36,606 bases of DNA. Origin: a bacterium. GTDB lineage: Bacteria > UBP6 > JAFGXH01. The stretch's first letter is position 1. Every line of letters starts with the position of its first letter. Below the pieces are notes generated by a model. That model did not search any database and was not told the origin of the DNA. It was given only the letters and a program-made list of their open reading frames with translations. The DNA is taken from positions 1 through 36,606 of the forward strand of contig JAMOQH010000122.1 of NCBI GenBank assembly GCA_027064085.1. Reading direction: 5' to 3'. Made by a program: the position numbers and the translations under genes. Positions 1 to 36,510 of this stretch are shown one piece after another.

Positions 1-2
1 GG

Positions 3-1496
3 TCAAATCATGCAAAATATAGACAAAAAATCATGGGTGAAATTGCAAATGCATCTAGATCTAGTAAATTTAACTTGGATAGATATAAAAAACATGAAGA
101 AAGTCTATTCATTGTTAAATTTAAATTTGAGAAAATTGGAGCATCAAAAATGCTTGGAATAAGCCCTAGAATTTTACAAAATGCTAGTAAAAATGGTCCT
201 TATTATAATCTAGGCTCATTAAAAGGTGGCCATGGTGATTTCAAAAATGGTATGATTTATCCTATAAGAAAAAGAGGCGCAGCTGCAGAAGGTCGTTCAA
301 TTGGGCCATGGGGAGATATTATAGCCTCTGATAAAGGATTTCAATTAACTCTTGAAATAGGCTTTGGAAATATTGCAGGGATCATAGACTTAGGAATGAA
401 ACAAAGTATAGGCTTTGGTACCTATATGTGGTCAGATAATAATGGTGGTAATTATTGGAGATGGGCATCACCAGATCGAAATAATACAGGAATTTGCTGG
501 AATTTTGGAAATAATAGAAATGATGCTTGTATGGATAGGCAAAGGTCCAACTTATATAACCCTTCAAAAGCATATATAAGAATACCTTTCAGAGTATGGG
601 ATTTTCTTCCAGGTAGTTTGCAAAGTCTTATTTCCACAATTAGATATGGTCTCCCACCTCTTGGCTGTAAGTTCAGTGAAGGTGTTAATGTAAGAGATTG
701 GCATAAAGACCACTTCGGACCTAACGATAAAGGTGCTTGGCCTAGATGTCGTAATAGAGGTTCTTGTCACTGGCCAACTTATTGGGGTTGTTGTAAATCG
801 ATTCCTGCAATTGCTTGTTATGTGGAATGGATTGCTCATAAAAGGATTCCAAATCATGAAGTTGTTCACCATAAGAAAAATGCTCAACAATATTATTTTG
901 GTGTAGCTCCTTATGTTAAATTTAATCCAGACGAGGATAGAAAAAAAGACTATAACCAACCTTCAACATGGATGTTAATGAACTTAGCACCGGGTAATTT
1001 TCTTACAGGTAATCCATGGAATTTTACTCAAAATAATGATATTCTAGGTACTAGTAAGGCTAGTAGTTCAAGTGATAGAGGTGGAAATTGGAGCCAACAT
1101 AAGAAAAATGACGCAGTAAATAAAAATTTTAATGGGCAAACAGGTCTTTCTACTAACCCTGTGATGGATGACTCAAATACCAAATACAGTGAGTTTAAAA
1201 TGTTTAATATTTTAGAACCTGGTATAAATGTTATGTCAAGAGCTAGAGTTTATTACCACAGACCAGGTAACTGGAATGAACAACCAAACTTTTTTAATCC
1301 ATACTGGAGAGCTCAACTTGCCCCTATCGCACCTAAAATAGGTGCATTAGTTGGAAGAGTTTTAAATGTTGATAGTACAACTAATAATGCAGCTAATAGT
1401 AAAGGTGGTGGTGGAATATTTAGTGGATTTGGTAATATAAAAAGTATGCTTGGTGACTTATTTGTAAATGTATTATCTAGTGTAATCACTCATTAA
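3..1496 (+). CDS. Tad-like cluster protein of unknown function, 5'-truncated by the window edge
   Basis: The reading frame is open from base 3 with no stop before the first ATG at 33, and that ATG has no convincing ribosome binding site, so the gene probably begins outside the window. The visible part (487 residues from the ATG at 33) is rich in Trp, Tyr, Asn and Cys, for example a cluster CRNRGSCHWPTYWGCC. Near the C-terminus it has the stretch YYHRPGNWNEQPNFFNPYW, then a Gly-rich and hydrophobic tail. I recall similar C-termini in proteins beside TadE-like genes of Myxococcota, but no named domain is recognised. It is followed 11 bp later by the TadE-like gene, so it is probably co-transcribed and exported as a surface or pilus-associated (TadG-like) component. 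Function is inferred from context only. Confidence 0.6.
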   Translation, partial: SNHAKYRQKIMGEIANASRSSKFNLDRYKKHEESLFIVKFKFEKIGASKMLGISPRILQNASKNGPYYNLGSLKGGHGDFKNGMIYPIRKRGAAAEGRSIGPWGDIIASDKGFQLTLEIGFGNIAGIIDLGMKQSIGFGTYMWSDNNGGNYWRWASPDRNNTGICWNFGNNRNDACMDRQRSNLYNPSKAYIRIPFRVWDFLPGSLQSLISTIRYGLPPLGCKFSEGVNVRDWHKDHFGPNDKGAWPRCRNRGSCHWPTYWGCCKSIPAIACYVEWIAHKRIPNHEVVHHKKNAQQYYFGVAPYVKFNPDEDRKKDYNQPSTWMLMNLAPGNFLTGNPWNFTQNNDILGTSKASSSSDRGGNWSQHKKNDAVNKNFNGQTGLSTNPVMDDSNTKYSEFKMFNILEPGINVMSRARVYYHRPGNWNEQPNFFNPYWRAQLAPIAPKIGALVGRVLNVDSTTNNAANSKGGGGIFSGFGNIKSMLGDLFVNVLSSVITH

Positions 1497-1507
1497 TAGA
1501 GGTTAGT

Positions 1508-2773
1508 ATGAAAAATTATAATTTAAACAGAAAAAATTATAAAAAAGCAGCAGCATTAACTGAATTTGTAATAATGACAACAGTAATGATACCTTTATTA
1601 TTATATGTAAGTTTCTTCTCTGAATTATTACAATTTAGAATGAAAATTAATGAAATGGGATATTTTGCAGCTTGGGAATTATCTGCTCATGGATTATCAA
1701 ATTATTCTAATGGAACTACCAATGGTGGTGCTTATAATGATATTGATGGTGGTGCTATGGTTTTTAAAAATGCTACTGACAAAGTAAAAAGTAAAACCTA
1801 TGAACTATATCATAATTTAGATTCTGCAGACCCTAGTAGAGCAATAGGATACATCATGATTACACCTGATCCAGATTCACTTGATGTAAAAATGGAAATG
1901 AAAAATAATATCATACCTAATGATACTCTAAATGGCACAGATTCAACAGCTGGAGGAGCACAGGGTAATGGTAGTGCAAATAGTGGAGGTCAAAATTTTG
2001 GTACAATTTTAACTAAGGTTAGTAATTTTATCAATAAAGGAATTAATTTCGTAGCAGGTAAAGCATTTGGATTTAACACAAAAGGAATAGGCTCTAAAGT
2101 AACTGCTTCTGGTGGTTTTGAAATAAGTAGCCATTTTAATTCAGATGCAGGTTCTAGAGATTCAGGTGGATTTTCAAATCATAAACTTTTACAAGATAGC
2201 ATGCTTAGTGGATTAACAACATATACTGCAAAACCATTTACTGTTTGGGTGGATACATGGGCAGTTAAATCTGGTGCAGATGTTGATAATACAGGCACAG
2301 GTAAAAAGTGTATAAATACTTGGGGAAAATTTAATTGTGATGGAGGAATATCTCCATACGCAATGCAAGTTTCTAGAATGAGTTTAATAGGAACATGGTC
2401 AGGAGGAAGAGTTCTTAGAGTTGTCGTTAACGCTATAGGTAGTGGATTTTTAGATATTTTGGGGCAAATACCTCTTATTGGTAGCATGTTTGGAGCAGAG
2501 GAACATCCAGCAGAAGCAAGAATGGTTTCAAAGAATTATTATTATAAAACTGATAAAAATCAATATAAATATGGAAATCATGTTGTGAGTATTTCCAAAG
2601 GACAATATAGATTTCAAACTTCTCCTTTGGTATACATTTTTAGATCAGGAGCTACTCCTACTGAAAAAGGCATAGTTGAATACAAACAAACTCTAGATAA
2701 AAGAAGAAATTTTTATATGGGTAATAATAAGCCTAATTGTAAATTTAATGGCATAACAGAGCAATGTCAATAG
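1508..2773 (+). CDS. TadE-like pseudopilin with a large C-terminal domain
   Basis: This 421-residue protein starts with a short polar leader ending in KKAAALTEF, followed by a hydrophobic segment (about residues 17-40). That is the layout of TadE-like pseudopilins: small residue, cleavage, Glu at about +5, then a hydrophobic helix. It is far longer than a usual TadE (about 150-200 residues). The extra part holds a Gly/Ser/Asn-rich linker around residues 135-165 and a long, presumably periplasmic domain with several Cys. The ribosome binding site AGAGG lies 6 bases before the ATG. The gene overlaps the ORF that runs into the next gene, consistent with an operon of pilus or surface-complex parts. 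Family assignment rests on the N-terminal motif and context; the large domain is unrecognised. Confidence 0.65.
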   Translation: MKNYNLNRKNYKKAAALTEFVIMTTVMIPLLLYVSFFSELLQFRMKINEMGYFAAWELSAHGLSNYSNGTTNGGAYNDIDGGAMVFKNATDKVKSKTYELYHNLDSADPSRAIGYIMITPDPDSLDVKMEMKNNIIPNDTLNGTDSTAGGAQGNGSANSGGQNFGTILTKVSNFINKGINFVAGKAFGFNTKGIGSKVTASGGFEISSHFNSDAGSRDSGGFSNHKLLQDSMLSGLTTYTAKPFTVWVDTWAVKSGADVDNTGTGKKCINTWGKFNCDGGISPYAMQVSRMSLIGTWSGGRVLRVVVNAIGSGFLDILGQIPLIGSMFGAEEHPAEARMVSKNYYYKTDKNQYKYGNHVVSISKGQYRFQTSPLVYIFRSGATPTEKGIVEYKQTLDKRRNFYMGNNKPNCKFNGITEQCQ

Positions 2774-2781
2774 GGGGAATA

Positions 2782-3570
2782 ATGAAACTTAAATATTTAA
2801 TAATTATTTCGTATATAGTTTTAGTTGCTGTATTTGGATTTTTTTATGAAAATAAAAATAGCGAATTGAAAGCATCTCCAATGAAAGTAAACTATACCAA
2901 TATAGATAATTACTACGATGTTGATATGCCTAGATATCCTGGAGTAAATGAAACTCCAATTATTGGGGAACAATATATTAACAATGCTAGAGCCCAATCT
3001 TCTTATTTTATAACAAACGATAATCCATTAGAAATCACTGCTTATTATGAAAAATATTGGACAGAGCAAGGGCTAGAGCCATTTAAAAAAATTACCCCAA
3101 ATAGTGGAAATTTATCAGTTTATGACTACAAAGATCGTGCCACTAAAACAATACTAATAAAAAAAGAGTCCAATAATAACTACAGAGTTGTTTTAACTGC
3201 TATAATTGATTCTAAAATGAAAAGAGAATTTAATGCATTTTCTGATATCCCTCAAAATAAAGGCTCTTATGGCTTTATAAGTTATGAATCAGAAGATGAA
3301 AATTATAGAGCATCTGATATTTCGTATTTTAATCATACTTCTTTTAATCAAAATGTTATTTTTTATAAAAAGGCTATGCTAGAAAATGGATGGAAATTTA
3401 ATACCGAAAGATCTCTACCAAAAGTTAACATATCTAAAACATTAGTATTTTCTAAAGGTAAAAAGGTTGCTGAAATTAATATAACTAAAAATAACACCTC
3501 TGGCTCAATAATAAGATTATTAGTTAAAGATAGAAATGTTGGCTTAATCATGACAGGAGTTAAAAAATGA
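2782..3570 (+). CDS. membrane-anchored protein of unknown function in the Tad-like cluster
   Basis: A 262-residue protein. The start is set at the ATG at 2782 because AGGGGGA sits just before it; an in-frame ATG at 2764 lies inside the upstream gene and has no ribosome binding site. Residues about 4-22 form one hydrophobic segment (signal anchor or uncleaved signal peptide), so the rest should lie in the periplasm. The remainder is a mixed polar domain with no recognised motif; two sections each carry an ITAYYEKYW- or VIFYKKAML-like helix and may be a weak internal repeat. The gene ends in an ATGA overlap with the Flp-type pilin gene, so the two are translationally coupled. It may help pilin assembly, but this is inference from position. 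Confidence 0.55.
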   Translation: MKLKYLIIISYIVLVAVFGFFYENKNSELKASPMKVNYTNIDNYYDVDMPRYPGVNETPIIGEQYINNARAQSSYFITNDNPLEITAYYEKYWTEQGLEPFKKITPNSGNLSVYDYKDRATKTILIKKESNNNYRVVLTAIIDSKMKREFNAFSDIPQNKGSYGFISYESEDENYRASDISYFNHTSFNQNVIFYKKAMLENGWKFNTERSLPKVNISKTLVFSKGKKVAEINITKNNTSGSIIRLLVKDRNVGLIMTGVKK

Positions 3571-3761
3571 GATTTATAAAGAATTTTATTAATAAGTTCA
3601 AAAGAGAAGATGGTCAATCTGTTGTTGAATACTCATTAATATCATTTATGATATTGGGTGGTGGCGTAATATTCTTACCATCGGCAATAGATGATATTGT
3701 AACTGCTTATCATATTTATATTGGCAGTTATTATTATGTTATATCAATGCCTATTCTATAA
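3567..3761 (+). CDS. Flp-type pilin (small type IVb pilin-like protein)
   Basis: This 64-residue protein has a basic leader, then DGQSVVEYSLI and a hydrophobic helix. G-QSVV-EY fits the Flp prepilin motif G(x4)EY, in which a prepilin peptidase cuts after the Gly and Glu5/Tyr6 of the mature pilin are conserved. The mature product would be about 48 residues, typical for Flp pilins. The start overlaps the upstream stop by ATGA, with CAGGAG about 10 bases before it. The gene runs convergently into the AraC-type regulator with a 6-base overlap, leaving no room for a normal terminator. No prepilin peptidase or Tad ATPase is visible in the window, so the rest of the machine must be encoded upstream or elsewhere. 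Confidence 0.7.
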   Translation: MRFIKNFINKFKREDGQSVVEYSLISFMILGGGVIFLPSAIDDIVTAYHIYIGSYYYVISMPIL

Positions 3762-30801: not shown

Positions 30802-31551
30802 CTATTCAGCTTCGCAACCTTTTCCATCTTCTGTAGTTTTAAAGCCTTGATTACAAGTACAAAGAGCATTGCCTTCATCATCGGTGTCACATGTTCCTTG
30901 ATAATTACAGGTAACACCTTTACAAGGCGATGAAATTATCTCTGTTGATTTAACACACACATACATACCCTTTAGAGGATGCCCTTGTAATTGAATAGGA
31001 CTTACACAATTATAGTTTTCAGGACAACCTATCGCAACACATTTACCTTGTTCTGAACACTCAAGTCCTGTATCACACATACCTGTAATATTCTGGGGGC
31101 TACATTTTGTATTTTCAAGAACACAGTTTCCTTGAAGATATACTTCATTAGGTTGGCAAATTGATTGACAATTTCCAGACTCATTACATTTTTTACCTTC
31201 AGGACACAAACCACTTAAATTTTCAGGAGAACAAGTTTTTGCAATTTCATAACAAACGGCATCTACACATTTTTCTGTAGATTTACAAATAACATCACCT
31301 ATTTTAGTAGTTTCATTATAACAAGTTCTTTTGGGACCACATTTTTGAGTACAATAAGAACCATTTCCGTCATAAGAGATGCATAAAGCATCGCTATCAA
31401 GAGTCATACAATCTAAATTTTTCTGTTCAATTTTAGTAACATGCTCTGATGTAGGCTTTAAAAGAGCACAATTATCACCTAATTTTGCATTATTTTCACA
31501 ACTAATTGCTAAAAAAACTAAAATAAATATAGTTATTTTTAATAATTTCAT
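30802..31551 (-). CDS. Cys-rich EGF-like lipoprotein
   Basis: A 249-residue predicted lipoprotein. The ATG at 31551 is chosen because GGAGG stands 8 bases before it; an ATG five codons upstream has no site. Lipobox is LAIS-C18. About 25 Cys follow. Two similar units, CSPENLSGLCPEGKKCNESG and CSPQNITGMCDTGLECSEQG, flank a short linker, and the C-terminus is one EGF-like module (about 210-248) with CTCNQGF. It appears to be a disulfide-rich surface protein like the other two EGF lipoproteins in the window. It has its own strong promoter in front and no partner gene on the same strand. Confidence 0.75.
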   Translation of the reverse strand: MKLLKITIFILVFLAISCENNAKLGDNCALLKPTSEHVTKIEQKNLDCMTLDSDALCISYDGNGSYCTQKCGPKRTCYNETTKIGDVICKSTEKCVDAVCYEIAKTCSPENLSGLCPEGKKCNESGNCQSICQPNEVYLQGNCVLENTKCSPQNITGMCDTGLECSEQGKCVAIGCPENYNCVSPIQLQGHPLKGMYVCVKSTEIISSPCKGVTCNYQGTCDTDDEGNALCTCNQGFKTTEDGKGCEAE

Positions 31552-31576: not shown

Positions 31577-31605
31577 ATTATATATATTTTTTAACAATTT
31601 TTCAA
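31577..31605 (-). promoter_or_regulatory. strong promoter of the Cys-rich EGF lipoprotein gene
   Basis: On the minus strand, TTGAAA (31605-31600), a 17-bp spacer and a perfect TATAAT (31582-31577). It starts right after the stop codon of the upstream transglutaminase-like gene, so the lipoprotein can be expressed independently of the stressosome operon. Confidence 0.65.
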
Positions 31606-31606
31606 C

Positions 31607-32779
31607 TTAAAATGCATTTTCAAAATTTATATAGTTAATATCTAAAGGAATTATAATTATTCCATACTTACTTTCCTCTCCTAATTTTAAATAATTTAAA
31701 TTAATAAAAGCCTTTTTATTAACAGGATCAAAAGCCTTAATTGAATTAGATGATTGATATTCCACCCATGAATGATATAACCATCTTCCTTTTTTGGGCT
31801 TATAAATTAAACCATATATTTTTTTAGCATAAAATCCTAATTTTCTCAAAATCCCTACTGAGACTTCTGAAAACTCAGTACAATCACCTTTTTTTATCGT
31901 TAAAATCTCTCTAATTGACATTTTTTTTGAAATATCTTGATATCCTATTTCTTTGTGTAAAGCAGTTATTAAAAAAGGAATTAAAGCATCAAGCTTTTGG
32001 TATTTATTTAAATTATATCTTTTTATAAAGTCATCAAGCAAGGGCTCTACTTTTGAGTATAAAGCTTTTTTTTGTTGTTTTATATTATTTTTCACTAAAT
32101 TATTGTTAGTTAAAATACATTTTACTTTTTCAGCTTCTTTTTTACATTTTTGCCTTAAATCGCTTGGTGGTATAATTTCTGAATCAAATGAAATTACATA
32201 TTTAGCCGGATATTCTTTTTTTATTTTTTGGGAATTAACTTCTCTAAACCTTAAAACATTAAAATAATATATTTTATTGGGTATTTCATCTAATTTCTGG
32301 TATTTAAACGGAGATGCATAATAACCTTTTGCTGTTTTATGAATTTTCAATTCACTTTTATCAATTAATTTAGCTATACTAGGATAATAAACTTTTTTGT
32401 AATTATCTAGATTATTAAACAAAAAGGGATATATTAAATTTTTGGAACTTATTTTTCTCTTAAAGTTTAAAGATGGAGATGAATATATAACTAAATCTCC
32501 TTTTCTTAACATTTTAACTTCGTGAATAGACTTTTTATTTCCATTTTTTATATATATTTTACAAGAATAATTTTCATTTTTTTGAGTGCAAAGACCAACT
32601 ATCTTATTTTTGGCTAGAATAGAGTACATTTTATCATATTTTTTTGTATTTTCTCCATTTACATCTCCTAATTCAGGAGTAAAAAACTCCTCTTTATCAT
32701 AATAATTATTAATTGAATATTTTATTATTATTACCGTAAATAACGATGCTAATATTATAGCTATTTTTAAACCCCTCAT
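31607..32779 (-). CDS. membrane-anchored transglutaminase-like (papain-fold) protein
   Basis: A 390-residue protein. Residues about 4-22 form one membrane anchor; the rest should be periplasmic. A transglutaminase-like core near the C-terminus has all three expected catalytic residues: Cys300 in KKGDCTEFSEV, His336 in LYHSWVEY and Asp351 in AFDPVNKKAF. Residues about 40-290 are unrecognised. In bacteria such domains act as proteases, amidases or crosslinking enzymes; the reaction here is unknown. The ATG overlaps the stop of the TPR gene by ATGA. It is the last gene of the stressosome operon, suggesting an envelope output. Confidence 0.75.
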   Translation of the reverse strand: MRGLKIAIILASLFTVIIIKYSINNYYDKEEFFTPELGDVNGENTKKYDKMYSILAKNKIVGLCTQKNENYSCKIYIKNGNKKSIHEVKMLRKGDLVIYSSPSLNFKRKISSKNLIYPFLFNNLDNYKKVYYPSIAKLIDKSELKIHKTAKGYYASPFKYQKLDEIPNKIYYFNVLRFREVNSQKIKKEYPAKYVISFDSEIIPPSDLRQKCKKEAEKVKCILTNNNLVKNNIKQQKKALYSKVEPLLDDFIKRYNLNKYQKLDALIPFLITALHKEIGYQDISKKMSIREILTIKKGDCTEFSEVSVGILRKLGFYAKKIYGLIYKPKKGRWLYHSWVEYQSSNSIKAFDPVNKKAFINLNYLKLGEESKYGIIIIPLDINYINFENAF

Positions 32780-33495
32780 CTTCTACTCTTTAAAAGAGGT
32801 CTCATTTTTTTCTTTTTTTTCTTTTTTAAATTTAAAGATTTAAGAAATTCTTTTAGCTTTTCTTTTTCATTATATTTCTTATAAAATCTAATTAAATATT
32901 TAGTTGCATAATACTTATCCTTTGAATTCTTATAGAAAACGACTAACTCATGTTCAGCTTTCTCTAATTCATTAATTTTTTGATATAATATTGCTAAATT
33001 AACTCTCTGAAGCTCATCATGATACTTATTTACAAGCACATTATAGTATTTTATTGCATTTCTATAATTATTTTTTCTATTTTCAATTAATGCAAGCCTA
33101 TTTATAGCTCTTTTATTATTTTTTATTTTAAGAAGATATATCCTAGCTTTAATATAATTTTCCTCTTCAAAGTAAATATCGCCTAAAGCATTTATTAACT
33201 CTTGATTATTAGGTTTTTCTTTAATTGCATTTTTTATAATATTTTCAGCCTTTGATATTTCACCTATTTTTTTATAAAGAATACCTAAGTCAATAAATAA
33301 AGAAACAGAATGATTAGATTTAGTTAACTCTTTATAGTACTTTAAAGAGTTTTTATAGTGTCCATATTCTTTTAATAAAGAGGCGAGTTTTATTTCTGAT
33401 TTAAAAATTTCTTTTTTAGAGTATATTTTAGAATATAATGCTTTAGGGCTAATAAATGTTAATACTATAAACATAAAAAAGATATTTTTTATCAT
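32776..33495 (-). CDS. exported tetratricopeptide-repeat protein
   Basis: A 239-residue protein. A signal peptide or anchor covers about residues 1-22. Residues about 30-215 show repeated helix pairs of TPR type, such as YYKELTKSNHSVSLFIDLGILYKKIG, IKEKPNNQELINALGDIYFEEENY and KYHDELQRVNLAILYQKINELEKAEHEL. The C-terminus is strongly basic (KKKKKKMRPLLKSRR). It should be a protein-interaction scaffold in the periplasm. It overlaps by ATGA both the GGDEF gene before it and the transglutaminase-like gene after it, so these three are translated as a coupled set. Confidence 0.75.
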   Translation of the reverse strand: MIKNIFFMFIVLTFISPKALYSKIYSKKEIFKSEIKLASLLKEYGHYKNSLKYYKELTKSNHSVSLFIDLGILYKKIGEISKAENIIKNAIKEKPNNQELINALGDIYFEEENYIKARIYLLKIKNNKRAINRLALIENRKNNYRNAIKYYNVLVNKYHDELQRVNLAILYQKINELEKAEHELVVFYKNSKDKYYATKYLIRFYKKYNEKEKLKEFLKSLNLKKKKKKKMRPLLKSRR

Positions 33496-34397
33496 TTTTC
33501 TAACTCACCACTTAAAACTGTTTGATTTCTACCATTTTCTTTTGCAAAATACAAAGCATCATCAGAATCAGTTATTAACTTACTTATCAACATATTATCC
33601 GTGTATTCAGAAATACCAATAGAACAAGTAATAGTATTAACTATTTCAAAAACATTATTCGCAATAATATTTCTAATTTTTTCAGCAACTTTTTTAGCAT
33701 CTAAAGCACTAGTTTCAGGCATTAACAATACAAATTCTTCACCTCCCCACCTTGCAAAAACATCAGATTTTCTTATATTTTTGGCAATTAAAGAACTAAA
33801 TTCTACTAAAACCCTGTCCCCAACCAAATGCCCAAAATTATCATTAACATGCTTAAAATGGTCAATATCAAATATTGCAAATGATAAATTAATTTTGTAT
33901 CGTTTCGCTCTAGCCATTTCCCTTTCTAACAATTCATTAAATTTATTTCTATTAAAAACATTAGTCAAGTTATCATAATATGCCTTCTTTTTTAATTCGT
34001 GATTCATTTCTAAAAGGCTATTCCTTGTAACAGAAATCTTGTTAATTTTATCTATAATTTCTTTATTTAATTTAAAATTATTAGCTAATATTACCTTGTA
34101 CTTATTAACTATAAAATTATTTTTTTGTATATACTCAAAATCATCAAAAATTCCATCTATAATTTTAATATCTTTTTTAGATTCAACATATAAATAAAGC
34201 TCCTTATCCATAATAGATATTTTTATACCAACATTTATCATATCAAAGTAATTTGAAAAAAAAGATATAATTGAAACTCTTTTGTAGCTATCTAACTTAA
34301 ACAACTCTAATATTTGCAGTAATCTATTAATTAAATCGTGTTTGCTTGAAGGTTTTAAAAATACTAATTCCTTCTCTTTTTTCTTATTCAAGCTCAT
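33492..34397 (-). CDS. diguanylate cyclase (GGDEF) with a stressosome-linked N-terminal domain
   Basis: A 301-residue protein. The C-terminal half (about 135-300) is a GGDEF domain: DNLTNVFNRNKF, FDIDHFKHVNDNFGH, active-site GGEEF (218-222) and, at exactly five residues before it, the inhibitory I-site RKSD (209-212). It should therefore make c-di-GMP with product inhibition. The N-terminal half (about 1-130) has no recognised fold; in the comparable Moorella operon the N-terminal part of the cyclase is bound by the stressosome switch kinase, so a similar role is inferred. The ATG is only one base after GAGG; a TTG two codons later is better spaced and may be the true start. It overlaps the RsbX-like gene by 14 bp. 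Confidence 0.88.
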   Translation of the reverse strand: MSLNKKKEKELVFLKPSSKHDLINRLLQILELFKLDSYKRVSIISFFSNYFDMINVGIKISIMDKELYLYVESKKDIKIIDGIFDDFEYIQKNNFIVNKYKVILANNFKLNKEIIDKINKISVTRNSLLEMNHELKKKAYYDNLTNVFNRNKFNELLEREMARAKRYKINLSFAIFDIDHFKHVNDNFGHLVGDRVLVEFSSLIAKNIRKSDVFARWGGEEFVLLMPETSALDAKKVAEKIRNIIANNVFEIVNTITCSIGISEYTDNMLISKLITDSDDALYFAKENGRNQTVLSGELEK

Positions 34398-34971
34398 ACC
34401 TCATCAATAATCCTAATGCATCATCAATATTCCTTTCTTTTTTGATTATCATATCCAAAATATTGTCTAGTTTTTTATTATATACAAAATACTTACTTAA
34501 AGATATATTACTTTTAATACCATCAGTATGAAACAATAAATACTCTTTATTTTTTAATATTCCTTTTTCTTTTTTTATTTTCATAGGTAAATATATTCCC
34601 ACAATACCTTCTTGAGTCTTAAGCACTTCTATATAACCTTTATTATCTACTTTTTTTACAGAAATATTTCCAATACAAGAATACTCATATTTAGCGGTTT
34701 TTGTATTAATTTTACCAATTAATACAACAGCTCCATTACCAGTAAGTTCTTTGTTTATTTCTAAAAAAATTTTTTCAAAATCTAGAATTTCAATCCCATT
34801 TTCAACTATATTCTTTAATCTTTTAGCATTAAAAAAACATTTTCTAGTTCCATGTCCAGCTATATCAATTACAGAAAAAAACAAACAATCATTTACCTTT
34901 TTAATGAAATATGTATCTCCACTTGTTTGATAAGTAATTAAGGGTATATGTTTAATAGCAAATTCTATCAT
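34384..34971 (-). CDS. rsbX: RsbX-like PP2C/SpoIIE-type serine phosphatase
   Basis: A 195-residue protein, the size of RsbX rather than RsbU. PP2C-like metal-binding residues are visible: SGDTYFI (Asp19), VIDIAGHG (Asp36) and LLFHTDGIKS (Asp150), with NGAVVLIGKI between. No N-terminal RsbT-binding domain is present. RsbX dephosphorylates RsbR and RsbS to reset the stressosome. The ATG follows directly on the rsbT stop, so translation is probably coupled. Position between rsbT and the GGDEF gene fits the module order known from Moorella. Confidence 0.82.
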   Translation of the reverse strand: MIEFAIKHIPLITYQTSGDTYFIKKVNDCLFFSVIDIAGHGTRKCFFNAKRLKNIVENGIEILDFEKIFLEINKELTGNGAVVLIGKINTKTAKYEYSCIGNISVKKVDNKGYIEVLKTQEGIVGIYLPMKIKKEKGILKNKEYLLFHTDGIKSNISLSKYFVYNKKLDNILDMIIKKERNIDDALGLLMRYELE

Positions 34972-35352
34972 TTATTTCTCAAGCTTTAGTTTTACAATAA
35001 TTTTTGTACCTTTACTACTAGTTTCAATATCCATTTTATGGCTCAACCTTTTTACACTAGGAAGTCCTAAACCCAAACTTTTACCACTAGTAAATCCCTC
35101 TTTTAAAGCTAAATCTATATCTTTTATTCCTGGTCCATTATCTATTGCAATTATTGTTACGATATCTTTATTAATTTCAAATTTAATTTTACCCTTATTT
35201 GCATATTTTAAAATATTTGTAGCTAATTCAGAAACTATTATAATTACAGTATCTTTATTCTTTACTTTTAAGTCATTTAAAATTTTTGTGATTTTAGAAA
35301 TAATTATTTGATGTTCAATTCTATTTTTTATATTAAAAATTTCACTTATCAT
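34972..35352 (-). CDS. rsbT: RsbT-like serine kinase of the stressosome
   Basis: A 126-residue GHKL ATPase. N-box residues Glu42 and Asn46 lie in SELATNILKY; the G1 box is DNGPGI (71-76); the Gly-rich lid is GFTSGKSLGLGLPSVKRL (86-103); GT near the end (115-116) completes the fold. Wording and size are those of RsbT, which phosphorylates RsbR and RsbS and then leaves to activate its output partner. No histidine-kinase domain is present. The ATG overlaps the rsbS stop by ATGA. Confidence 0.9.
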   Translation of the reverse strand: MISEIFNIKNRIEHQIIISKITKILNDLKVKNKDTVIIIVSELATNILKYANKGKIKFEINKDIVTIIAIDNGPGIKDIDLALKEGFTSGKSLGLGLPSVKRLSHKMDIETSSKGTKIIVKLKLEK

Positions 35353-35678
35353 TTTTTAACAACCTTATCCAAGTTCAAATAAATTTTAGCATTTATTTGA
35401 ACATCTAAGTTTGATAAAAAATATGCTGTTTCTGCCTGAATACCAGCAATAAATGTTTTAATATCATACATTTTGAAAAAATCAATAATTTTATTAATAA
35501 AAGAAACTGTAGGCTCATCCATAATTTGGTATGAATTCAATTCTAATATAACATTACTAAATCTATCCTTTCCATTGCTTAAAATTTGCTTAAAAAAGCC
35601 TAGATTTTCATTTTCTATTGGCTTTAAAGCAATTATTAAATAATTATTAGAGATATAATAATGATAACTACTTGTCAA
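35349..35678 (-). CDS. rsbS: RsbS-like STAS protein with the phospho-serine replaced by Glu
   Basis: A 109-residue single STAS domain, RsbS-sized. It begins at a TTG codon; AAAGGA 6 bases before it supports this, and the start overlaps the rsbR end by 11 bp. A gapless comparison with B. subtilis RsbS (from memory) pairs VILELNSYQIMDE with VVIDLTSVDMIDS and continues to AGIQ/TGIQ. The phospho-acceptor Ser59 corresponds to Glu55 here. Thr57 and Ser59 of this protein lie close by. It should co-assemble with RsbR as the stressosome core. Alternative: a more general anti-sigma antagonist, but the rsbR/rsbT neighbours favour RsbS. Confidence 0.82.
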   Translation of the reverse strand: MTSSYHYYISNNYLIIALKPIENENLGFFKQILSNGKDRFSNVILELNSYQIMDEPTVSFINKIIDFFKMYDIKTFIAGIQAETAYFLSNLDVQINAKIYLNLDKVVKK

Positions 35679-36510
35679 GATAATCCTTTGCTTTAGCTAT
35701 TGCAGCTCTTAAAGTTGAAGTAGTATTTAATTCTTTTAAATCTATACCTAAATTAACAATTGCTTCTGCAACATTTGGATTCATACCTGAAAGAATTGCT
35801 TTTCCGCCCATCAACCTAACAGCCTTTGATATTTTAATTAAATGAGATGCTACTGCAGTATCAACAACATTTATTGCTGTAATATCAAGAATTACCATTT
35901 CTGACTCTTTTTGTTTAATATGGCTCAATATTTTTTTCATAATAGAGTATGACTTTTCGGAATCGATATAACCCATTAAAGGTACAAGCATTACATGTTC
36001 CATGATATCAAGCATTGGTACCTCTAGCTCCATTATTAATTCATATTGTTCATTAATTAGTCTTTCTTTCTCTACTACAAAAATATTAAACATATAAAAA
36101 TTAATTTGGTCAAACATCATATCTGTAAAAAATAATTCATCCGTCATTTGTTTAGTATTGTTACCTTCTAATTTAGTTAACATTATCTCAAATGAAATTG
36201 TTTTTAATGATGTAATCATTTTCATTGTTATATTTGATGAAATATTTAATTTAGCTTTTTGTTCAACAAAATTTTTTAAAAAAATAATTATCTCATTATT
36301 CTCATCATTAAGCATTTCAGCGTAATTATCTGAGCTTAAAGAATCTAGCATTAAATCGAAAAACTTTTGTAATTCTTTTTTAAATTCATGAAGATCAACA
36401 AAATCAATATCAATATCTTTAGAAATAAGTTTTTTCTGATATTCCAACCATTTATCCAAAATTAATTCTTTATTCTTTAAAAATATTTCTTTAGTAATTC
36501 CTAATTTCAC
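35668..36510 (-). CDS. rsbR: RsbR-like stressosome sensor protein
   Basis: A 280-residue protein. The start is a GTG at 36510, with GGAGG 6 bases upstream; the frame is open slightly further but without a site. Residues about 1-150 are helical (ILDKWLEYQKKL) and resemble the RsbRD-type sensor domain. A linker helix leads to a C-terminal STAS domain (about 163-280): ELEVPMLDIMEHVMLVPLMG, ILDITAINVVDTAVASHL and GMNPNVAEAIVNLGIDL. The Thr of VVDT (218) corresponds to phospho-Thr171 of B. subtilis RsbRA; the position of Thr205 is Ala250. It is the first gene of the stressosome operon and the likely signal input. The input signal is unknown; no haem- or flavin-binding motif is apparent. Confidence 0.88.
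   Translation of the reverse strand: MKLGITKEIFLKNKELILDKWLEYQKKLISKDIDIDFVDLHEFKKELQKFFDLMLDSLSSDNYAEMLNDENNEIIIFLKNFVEQKAKLNISSNITMKMITSLKTISFEIMLTKLEGNNTKQMTDELFFTDMMFDQINFYMFNIFVVEKERLINEQYELIMELEVPMLDIMEHVMLVPLMGYIDSEKSYSIMKKILSHIKQKESEMVILDITAINVVDTAVASHLIKISKAVRLMGGKAILSGMNPNVAEAIVNLGIDLKELNTTSTLRAAIAKAKDYLDK

Follow-up and report, generated by a model that had tools for sequence, protein, structure and literature searches.

A variant RsbRSTX stressosome operon with a diguanylate cyclase and a candidate RsbT-like coupling domain in a UBP6 bacterium

A stressosome operon of seven packed genes

Contig JAMOQH010000122.1 of a bacterium of the UBP6 lineage (assembly GCA_027064085.1), analysed here over its whole length of 36,606 nucleotides and hereafter called the window, carries on its minus strand, from position 36510 to 31607, seven closely packed open reading frames (ORFs) encoding homologs of the stressosome proteins RsbR, RsbS, RsbT and RsbX followed by a diguanylate cyclase, a tetratricopeptide repeat (TPR) protein and a transglutaminase-fold protein (Table 1). 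All seven ORFs, which had been listed in a preliminary sequence-only reading, were recovered at the same positions, with junction distances, in order from RsbR, of -11, -4, 0, -14, -4 and -4 bp. The Pfam domains of the products are, in operon order, RsbRD_N and STAS; STAS (a weak match); HATPase_c; SpoIIE; GGDEF; TPR; and Transglut_core. RsbR starts with a GTG codon at 36510, with GGAGG six bases before it; on this side the operon was read up to the contig edge, 96 bp upstream of RsbR, and may include genes beyond. At the other end, the neighbouring gene (30802-31551) encodes a cysteine-rich EGF-like lipoprotein. This gene starts 40-55 bp past the operon and is preceded by its own match to the sigma-70 consensus (11/12 positions, 31605-31577), which begins immediately after the final stop codon; the transglutaminase-fold gene is therefore probably the last of the operon.

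Table 1. Features of the stressosome operon and its downstream boundary
Feature	Position	Strand	Characteristics
RsbR	35668..36510	-	RsbRD_N sensor domain and STAS; both phosphosites (IDS, VVDT) retained
RsbS	35349..35678	-	Lone STAS; Ser59 switch site replaced by Glu (MDEP versus canonical DSF)
RsbT	34972..35352	-	Switch kinase; intact N, G1 and G2 boxes
RsbX	34384..34971	-	PP2C phosphatase; best solved relative 3zt9
Cyclase N-terminal domain	33990..34397	-	Residues 1-136; probable RsbT-like GHKL domain without ATP motifs, not RsbU_N
Diguanylate cyclase	33492..34397	-	GGEEF active site, RKSD I-site
TPR protein	32776..33495	-	Secreted; signal peptide, C-terminal MRPLLKSR
Transglutaminase-fold protein	31607..32779	-	N-terminal anchor; Cys-His-Asp kept
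Sigma-70-like promoter of the next gene	31577..31605	-	TTGAAA-17-TATAAT; consensus match alone

The RsbR sequence matched RsbR structures with an E-value of 5e-27 and contains phosphorylatable equivalents of T171 and T205, namely the Ser of IDS and the Thr of VVDT; when it was used as a query for named relatives, none were found. The ATP-binding boxes of RsbT (SELATN, DNGPG and LGLGLP) are intact and the protein falls within the RsbT profile set. RsbX retains the aligned aspartates and has as its best solved match 3zt9 (annotated as SpoIIE; E-value 4e-11), which we take to be the MtX protein of Moorella. In the cyclase, the GGEEF motif is accompanied by an RKSD I-site five residues upstream, and many solved cyclases match the protein from residue 105-144 onward. 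Judging from these motifs, the kinase, the phosphatase and the cyclase all look active, and the output of the system is likely to be cyclic di-GMP (c-di-GMP).

Loss of the RsbS switch serine and the associated output domain

The canonical switch of the RsbRST stressosome has a phosphorylatable Ser59 in RsbS. When aligned to RsbS of Bacillus subtilis (6jhk) and to YtvA, the window RsbS places MDEP opposite DSF, with Glu at the switch site. The serine is present in 17/17 RsbS proteins of a first comparison set and in 74 of the 88 of an enlarged set; of the remainder, 13 carry A, R, Y, H, F, K or V at this site, whereas the window protein carries E. The notion that the Glu is unique to the window is tempered by these 13 scored proteins without Ser and by the Glu also found at locus L102. 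Moreover, because the 13 are stressosome RsbS proteins, the Glu rules out the canonical switch, not membership of the stressosome family. Locus L102, from a Halobacteriovoraceae metagenome-assembled genome, encodes a degenerate RsbS-like STAS protein with Glu at the switch site (L102:5534-5857), an RsbT that is 52% identical to the window RsbT over the best segment and, downstream, a histidine kinase; no RsbX was seen at this locus.

In B. subtilis, phosphorylation of RsbS Ser59 correlates with the release of RsbT, a negative charge at this position lowers the affinity of RsbS for RsbT, and the S59D variant correlates with activation; signalling persists with S59A RsbS (PMC3944199). In RsbS of Vibrio brasiliensis, the B. 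subtilis sites are not conserved (PMC4976288). At every non-Ser locus for which RsbR was scored, an RsbR retains the Ser in IDS/LDS together with a Ser/Thr at the second site. Since S59A RsbS still signals (PMC3944199), the V. brasiliensis protein lacks the sites (PMC4976288) and the RsbR sites are kept, a working stressosome is, by analogy, compatible with loss of the serine.

A tree of 104 RsbT proteins places the window RsbT, which forms a very long branch, in a clade of four sequences (97/86) nested within a clade of nine (96/90), in the company of RsbT from Aeromonas, Synechococcus, Halieaceae, planctomycete and gemmatimonadete loci. The serine is lost in every other member of the nine-sequence clade that has a scored RsbS, and the enclosing group of 19 sequences (91/81) contains all the non-Ser loci (13/13). 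The output proteins adjoining these loci, including histidine kinases and HD-GYP proteins, have a common N-terminal domain of ~130 residues that is related to RsbT in profile comparison (Prob 97.7%, E 2e-12) but retains neither the Asn of the N box nor the G-box residues. Such an RsbT-like domain is found in the outputs of 13/13 non-Ser loci compared with 22/74 Ser loci (Fisher 1.4e-6, uncorrected for kinship and with several loci being near-copies). The opposite distribution of RsbU_N in the adjacent outputs (0/13 non-Ser and 21/74 Ser loci) is given little weight because many of the 21 RsbU_N loci come from Bacillaceae.

Among the proteins with the RsbT-like N-terminal domain are hybrid histidine kinases as well as a GAF-HD-GYP protein that has the HHxxxDGTGYP motif. 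At a planctomycete locus of this class the output is a c-di-GMP hydrolase of the GAF-HD-GYP type that begins with this N-terminal domain, so that the Ser-less class touches c-di-GMP on the hydrolysis side too. Outputs combining the RsbT-like domain with GAF and HD-GYP were observed at L104:2455-4083 and L120:5881-7509 (checked in L104). At L104, L112, L120, L124, L125, L131, L135, L142, L152 and many Bacteroidota loci, RsbT and RsbX form a single open frame; the fused kinase-phosphatase of L135 is one 356-aa protein with HATPase_c followed by SpoIIE (Pfam).

The N-terminal domain of the window cyclase has no credible homologs in 386 genomes, and profiles yielded no signal for a STAS or RsbX-like identity, nor did a direct RsbT profile. 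A test profile built from 12 RsbU N-termini scored 1.1 bits on this domain, rank 69 among ~200 shuffles, compared with 76 bits for the positive control, the cyclase of Sporotomaculum syntrophicum (locus L171); RsbU_N, which Pfam detects in the L171 protein and not in the window cyclase, was therefore rejected. The profile of the output-domain family gave a marginal match (ranking 25th of ~890 and 34th of 1956 when compared with shuffles). An AlphaFold model of the domain, generated with the family alignment (pLDDT 82, pTM 0.74), has the topology E-H-H-E-E-E-E-H, and the top five matches of this model in a Foldseek search against the PDB were RsbW, SpoIIAB and, in the RsbU/RsbW protein Rv1364c, the RsbW domain (prob 0.98-0.99); a viral structure library produced no convincing match. 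We regard this as probably an RsbT-like domain devoid of the ATP motifs.

Several observations weigh against this assignment and the interpretation built on it. By sequence, the domain matches only weakly (4.3 bits; hhalign P of 0.043 with the single sequence, in register), the Foldseek matches have E-values of 0.03-0.07 and TM-scores of ~0.5, the family alignment supplied may have steered the model, and the single-sequence model of the full-length cyclase was poor (pLDDT 43.5) and was not used. The 13 non-Ser loci are related, and the association may reflect few events; furthermore, the window RsbT lies on its very long branch and the operon was seen in one genome only. The output of L102 was itself unrecognised in a leave-one-out test with the output-domain family, though the RsbT of that locus neighbours that of the window in the tree; thus, divergence can hide a relation to the RsbT-like family.

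Proposed mechanism, alternatives and known systems

On balance, we are inclined to assign the operon to a variant class of stressosome, in minimal RsbRSTX form, the output of which is a diguanylate cyclase coupled via a dead RsbT-like domain and not via RsbU_N. RsbR, within the RsbR/RsbS core, would sense a signal; its conserved Ser/Thr sites would be phosphorylated by RsbT and the phosphates removed by RsbX, and RsbS, with the fixed Glu, would act as a scaffold and no longer as a phosphoswitch. The pseudo-RsbT domain of the cyclase might dock on the STAS core or pair with RsbT, so that the phosphorylation state of RsbR would decide whether the cyclase is held or is free to dimerise and make c-di-GMP, with the I-site limiting synthesis. 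Proteins encoded elsewhere, such as some of those with PilZ domains, could read the product: the genome yields 16 GGDEF and 8 PilZ matches, the latter indicating that c-di-GMP readers exist. The TPR and transglutaminase-fold proteins would have been recruited from host loci, either as passengers of the shared transcript or as effectors.

One alternative is that the operon works as in Moorella, with free RsbT binding and activating the N-terminus of the cyclase, which would then have to be an unrecognisable RsbU_N. The gene order common to the window, Moorella and Sporotomaculum and the proximity of RsbX to 3zt9 speak for such a scheme, but the RsbU_N profile score of the window domain lies inside the shuffles (1.1 bits against 76 for Sporotomaculum), its predicted topology is not a helical bundle, and RsbS lacks the serine that is tied to RsbT release in B. 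subtilis (PMC3944199). Accordingly, the Moorella mechanism as such is not supported for a cyclase without the RsbU_N domain of MtG and of the Sporotomaculum protein and an RsbS without the phosphoserine, and we consider this scheme unlikely. The Glu of RsbS might alternatively be a constitutive phosphomimic that leaves RsbT always free and the stressosome locked on, with the cyclase being constitutive or controlled only by transcription. Both the acidic residue at the window site, considering that activation of the B. subtilis response correlates with S59D (PMC3944199), and the second degenerate RsbS with Glu at L102 are compatible with this possibility; yet RsbX and both RsbR phosphosites, needless in a locked system, are kept, and the other members of the class have Ala, Val, Phe, His, Arg, Lys or Tyr, which makes the loss of Ser, and not negative charge, the common factor. 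A permanently active system thus also appears improbable. Finally, c-di-GMP or the stressosome could have the co-transcribed TPR and transglutaminase-fold proteins as direct targets, as might be expected from the overlap of the genes, the signal peptides or anchors, the location of the TPR orthologs in Flp-pilin/Tad-like operons and the retention of the catalytic Cys-His-Asp. Same-family genomes, however, link neither gene to a stressosome or to each other, and Pfam detected no c-di-GMP-binding domain in either protein, which makes direct envelope output a rather remote prospect.

Comparison with characterised systems brings out both the familiar and the divergent features of the variant stressosome. 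The MtG system of Moorella thermoacetica likewise consists of RsbR-RsbS-RsbT-RsbX followed by a GGDEF protein and is not part of a sigma-B cascade, and the window RsbX is most similar to 3zt9. The Moorella order that had been proposed for the first five genes (RSTX-GGDEF) is thus borne out, and it recurs at the Sporotomaculum syntrophicum locus L171, where the cyclase has RsbU_N (E 2.5e-22). Unlike MtG, which is an RsbU_N-GAF-GGDEF protein (PMC12143880), the window cyclase lacks RsbU_N and GAF; the Glu at the RsbS switch site and the continuation of the operon into the TPR and transglutaminase-fold genes are further differences from Moorella. In Vibrio vulnificus and V. brasiliensis, RSTX modules without sigma-B adjoin c-di-GMP or two-component outputs that mostly lack RsbU_N (PMC9237108). 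The window operon resembles these modules in all three respects and, as far as V. brasiliensis is concerned, in the non-conservation of the B. subtilis RsbS sites, but the Vibrio RsbR proteins are heme-globins whereas the window RsbR has RsbRD_N. The SiaABCD pathway of Pseudomonas aeruginosa also combines a PP2C phosphatase, a HATPase kinase, a STAS protein and a GGDEF cyclase, and SiaD is the best NCBIfam match of the window cyclase (182.8 bits, below the cut-off of 290); however, this match spans only the linker and GGDEF, and the window encodes an RsbR/RsbS core with stand-alone RsbT and RsbX.

With the RsbRST-RsbU-sigma-B system of B. subtilis the window operon shares homologs of RsbR, RsbS, RsbT and RsbX but lacks RsbU, RsbV, RsbW, sigma-B and the RsbS phosphoserine. 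The absence of sigma-B and RsbW, claimed from the sequence alone, holds for the operon and the window, within which no sigma factor or RsbW was found. Elsewhere in the genome, an RsbV/RsbW-like STAS-HATPase pair is encoded with no sigma gene beside it (C156; L223:3622-4418). The same genome contains another STAS gene adjoining a HATPase-like ORF (C51; L225:3033-3930) and a GAF-SpoIIE (GAF-PP2C) phosphatase (C22; L224:2621-4189); the C156, C51 and C22 genes are a separate partner-switching set. Several sigma-70 factors were identified in the genome, none above the SigBFG cut-off.

Origin of the operon and its implications

The last three genes of the operon have relatives in two genomes of the same family. 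Among the sequences compared, the reciprocal best match of the GGDEF domain in both is a PAS-GGDEF protein (48% identity, tree support 88/89), the N-terminus of which differs from that of the window cyclase. The TPR orthologs (35% identity, with the same MRPLLKSR ending) are encoded behind Flp-type pilin, TadE/TadG-like and NUDIX genes. The window itself encodes, at positions 1-3761, a TadG-like protein, a TadE-like protein, a 268-aa protein and an Flp-type pilin (3567-3761). This region is the rest of the same-family pilin operon, located 29 kb from the TPR gene; the same-family version adds the NUDIX and TPR genes. The transglutaminase-fold orthologs occur in two different neighbourhoods, without a stressosome. 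Among the 28 phylum entries searched (own included), no other genome has the window-type RsbT. In L031-L034, from the same phylum, an RsbT-like small ATPase lies beside a ~460 aa gene (G001, G003) in another gene neighbourhood; the RsbT matches in these genomes come from this different ATPase and not from a stressosome kinase.

The seven-gene order was therefore rejected as a conserved unit. A lack of conservation in relatives had been named in advance as evidence against the original proposal, and the order is not conserved even within the family. Because this RsbT is missing in the phylum relatives searched and the relatives of the cyclase, TPR and transglutaminase-fold genes lie elsewhere, the operon is, as judged by gene content, an assembly specific to this lineage and built on a stressosome of variant type. 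The proposal that the last two proteins are exported and that the output acts on the envelope fares accordingly: a signal peptide and an anchor are predicted, but the placement of the genes is lineage-specific and their orthologs reside outside any stressosome. The signal peptides and the pilin-operon ancestry of the TPR gene make the envelope a possible, if weakly suggested, output; the latter is the sole specific hint, and it points to the cell surface.

RsbU_N is lacking from most of the proteins downstream of stressosomes, those of V. vulnificus among them, and no binding of RsbT to the two-component target was detectable (PMC9237108). There is about an even chance that the dead RsbT-like domain, found on histidine kinases and HD-GYP hydrolases and probably also on the window cyclase, is a second general stressosome coupler besides RsbU_N. 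In a widespread Gram-negative branch it would be tied to the loss of the RsbS phosphoserine, with the signal passing through RsbR phosphorylation and docking of the pseudokinase instead of RsbS phosphorylation and release of RsbT to RsbU_N. No description of a pseudo-RsbT coupler was found in the literature searched, mostly freely readable papers; the window has a stressosome-cyclase operon that lacks both the RsbS phosphoserine and RsbU_N and probably uses a dead RsbT-like coupler. The combination of a pseudo-RsbT domain with RsbS serine loss would provide a concrete, testable answer to the question of how stressosomes without RsbU_N relay their signals, and the window represents a case in which such an output would be c-di-GMP synthesis. 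More generally, the operon illustrates how a stressosome can join host-type genes, in this instance those for a cyclase catalytic domain, a TPR protein from a pilin operon and a transglutaminase-fold protein.

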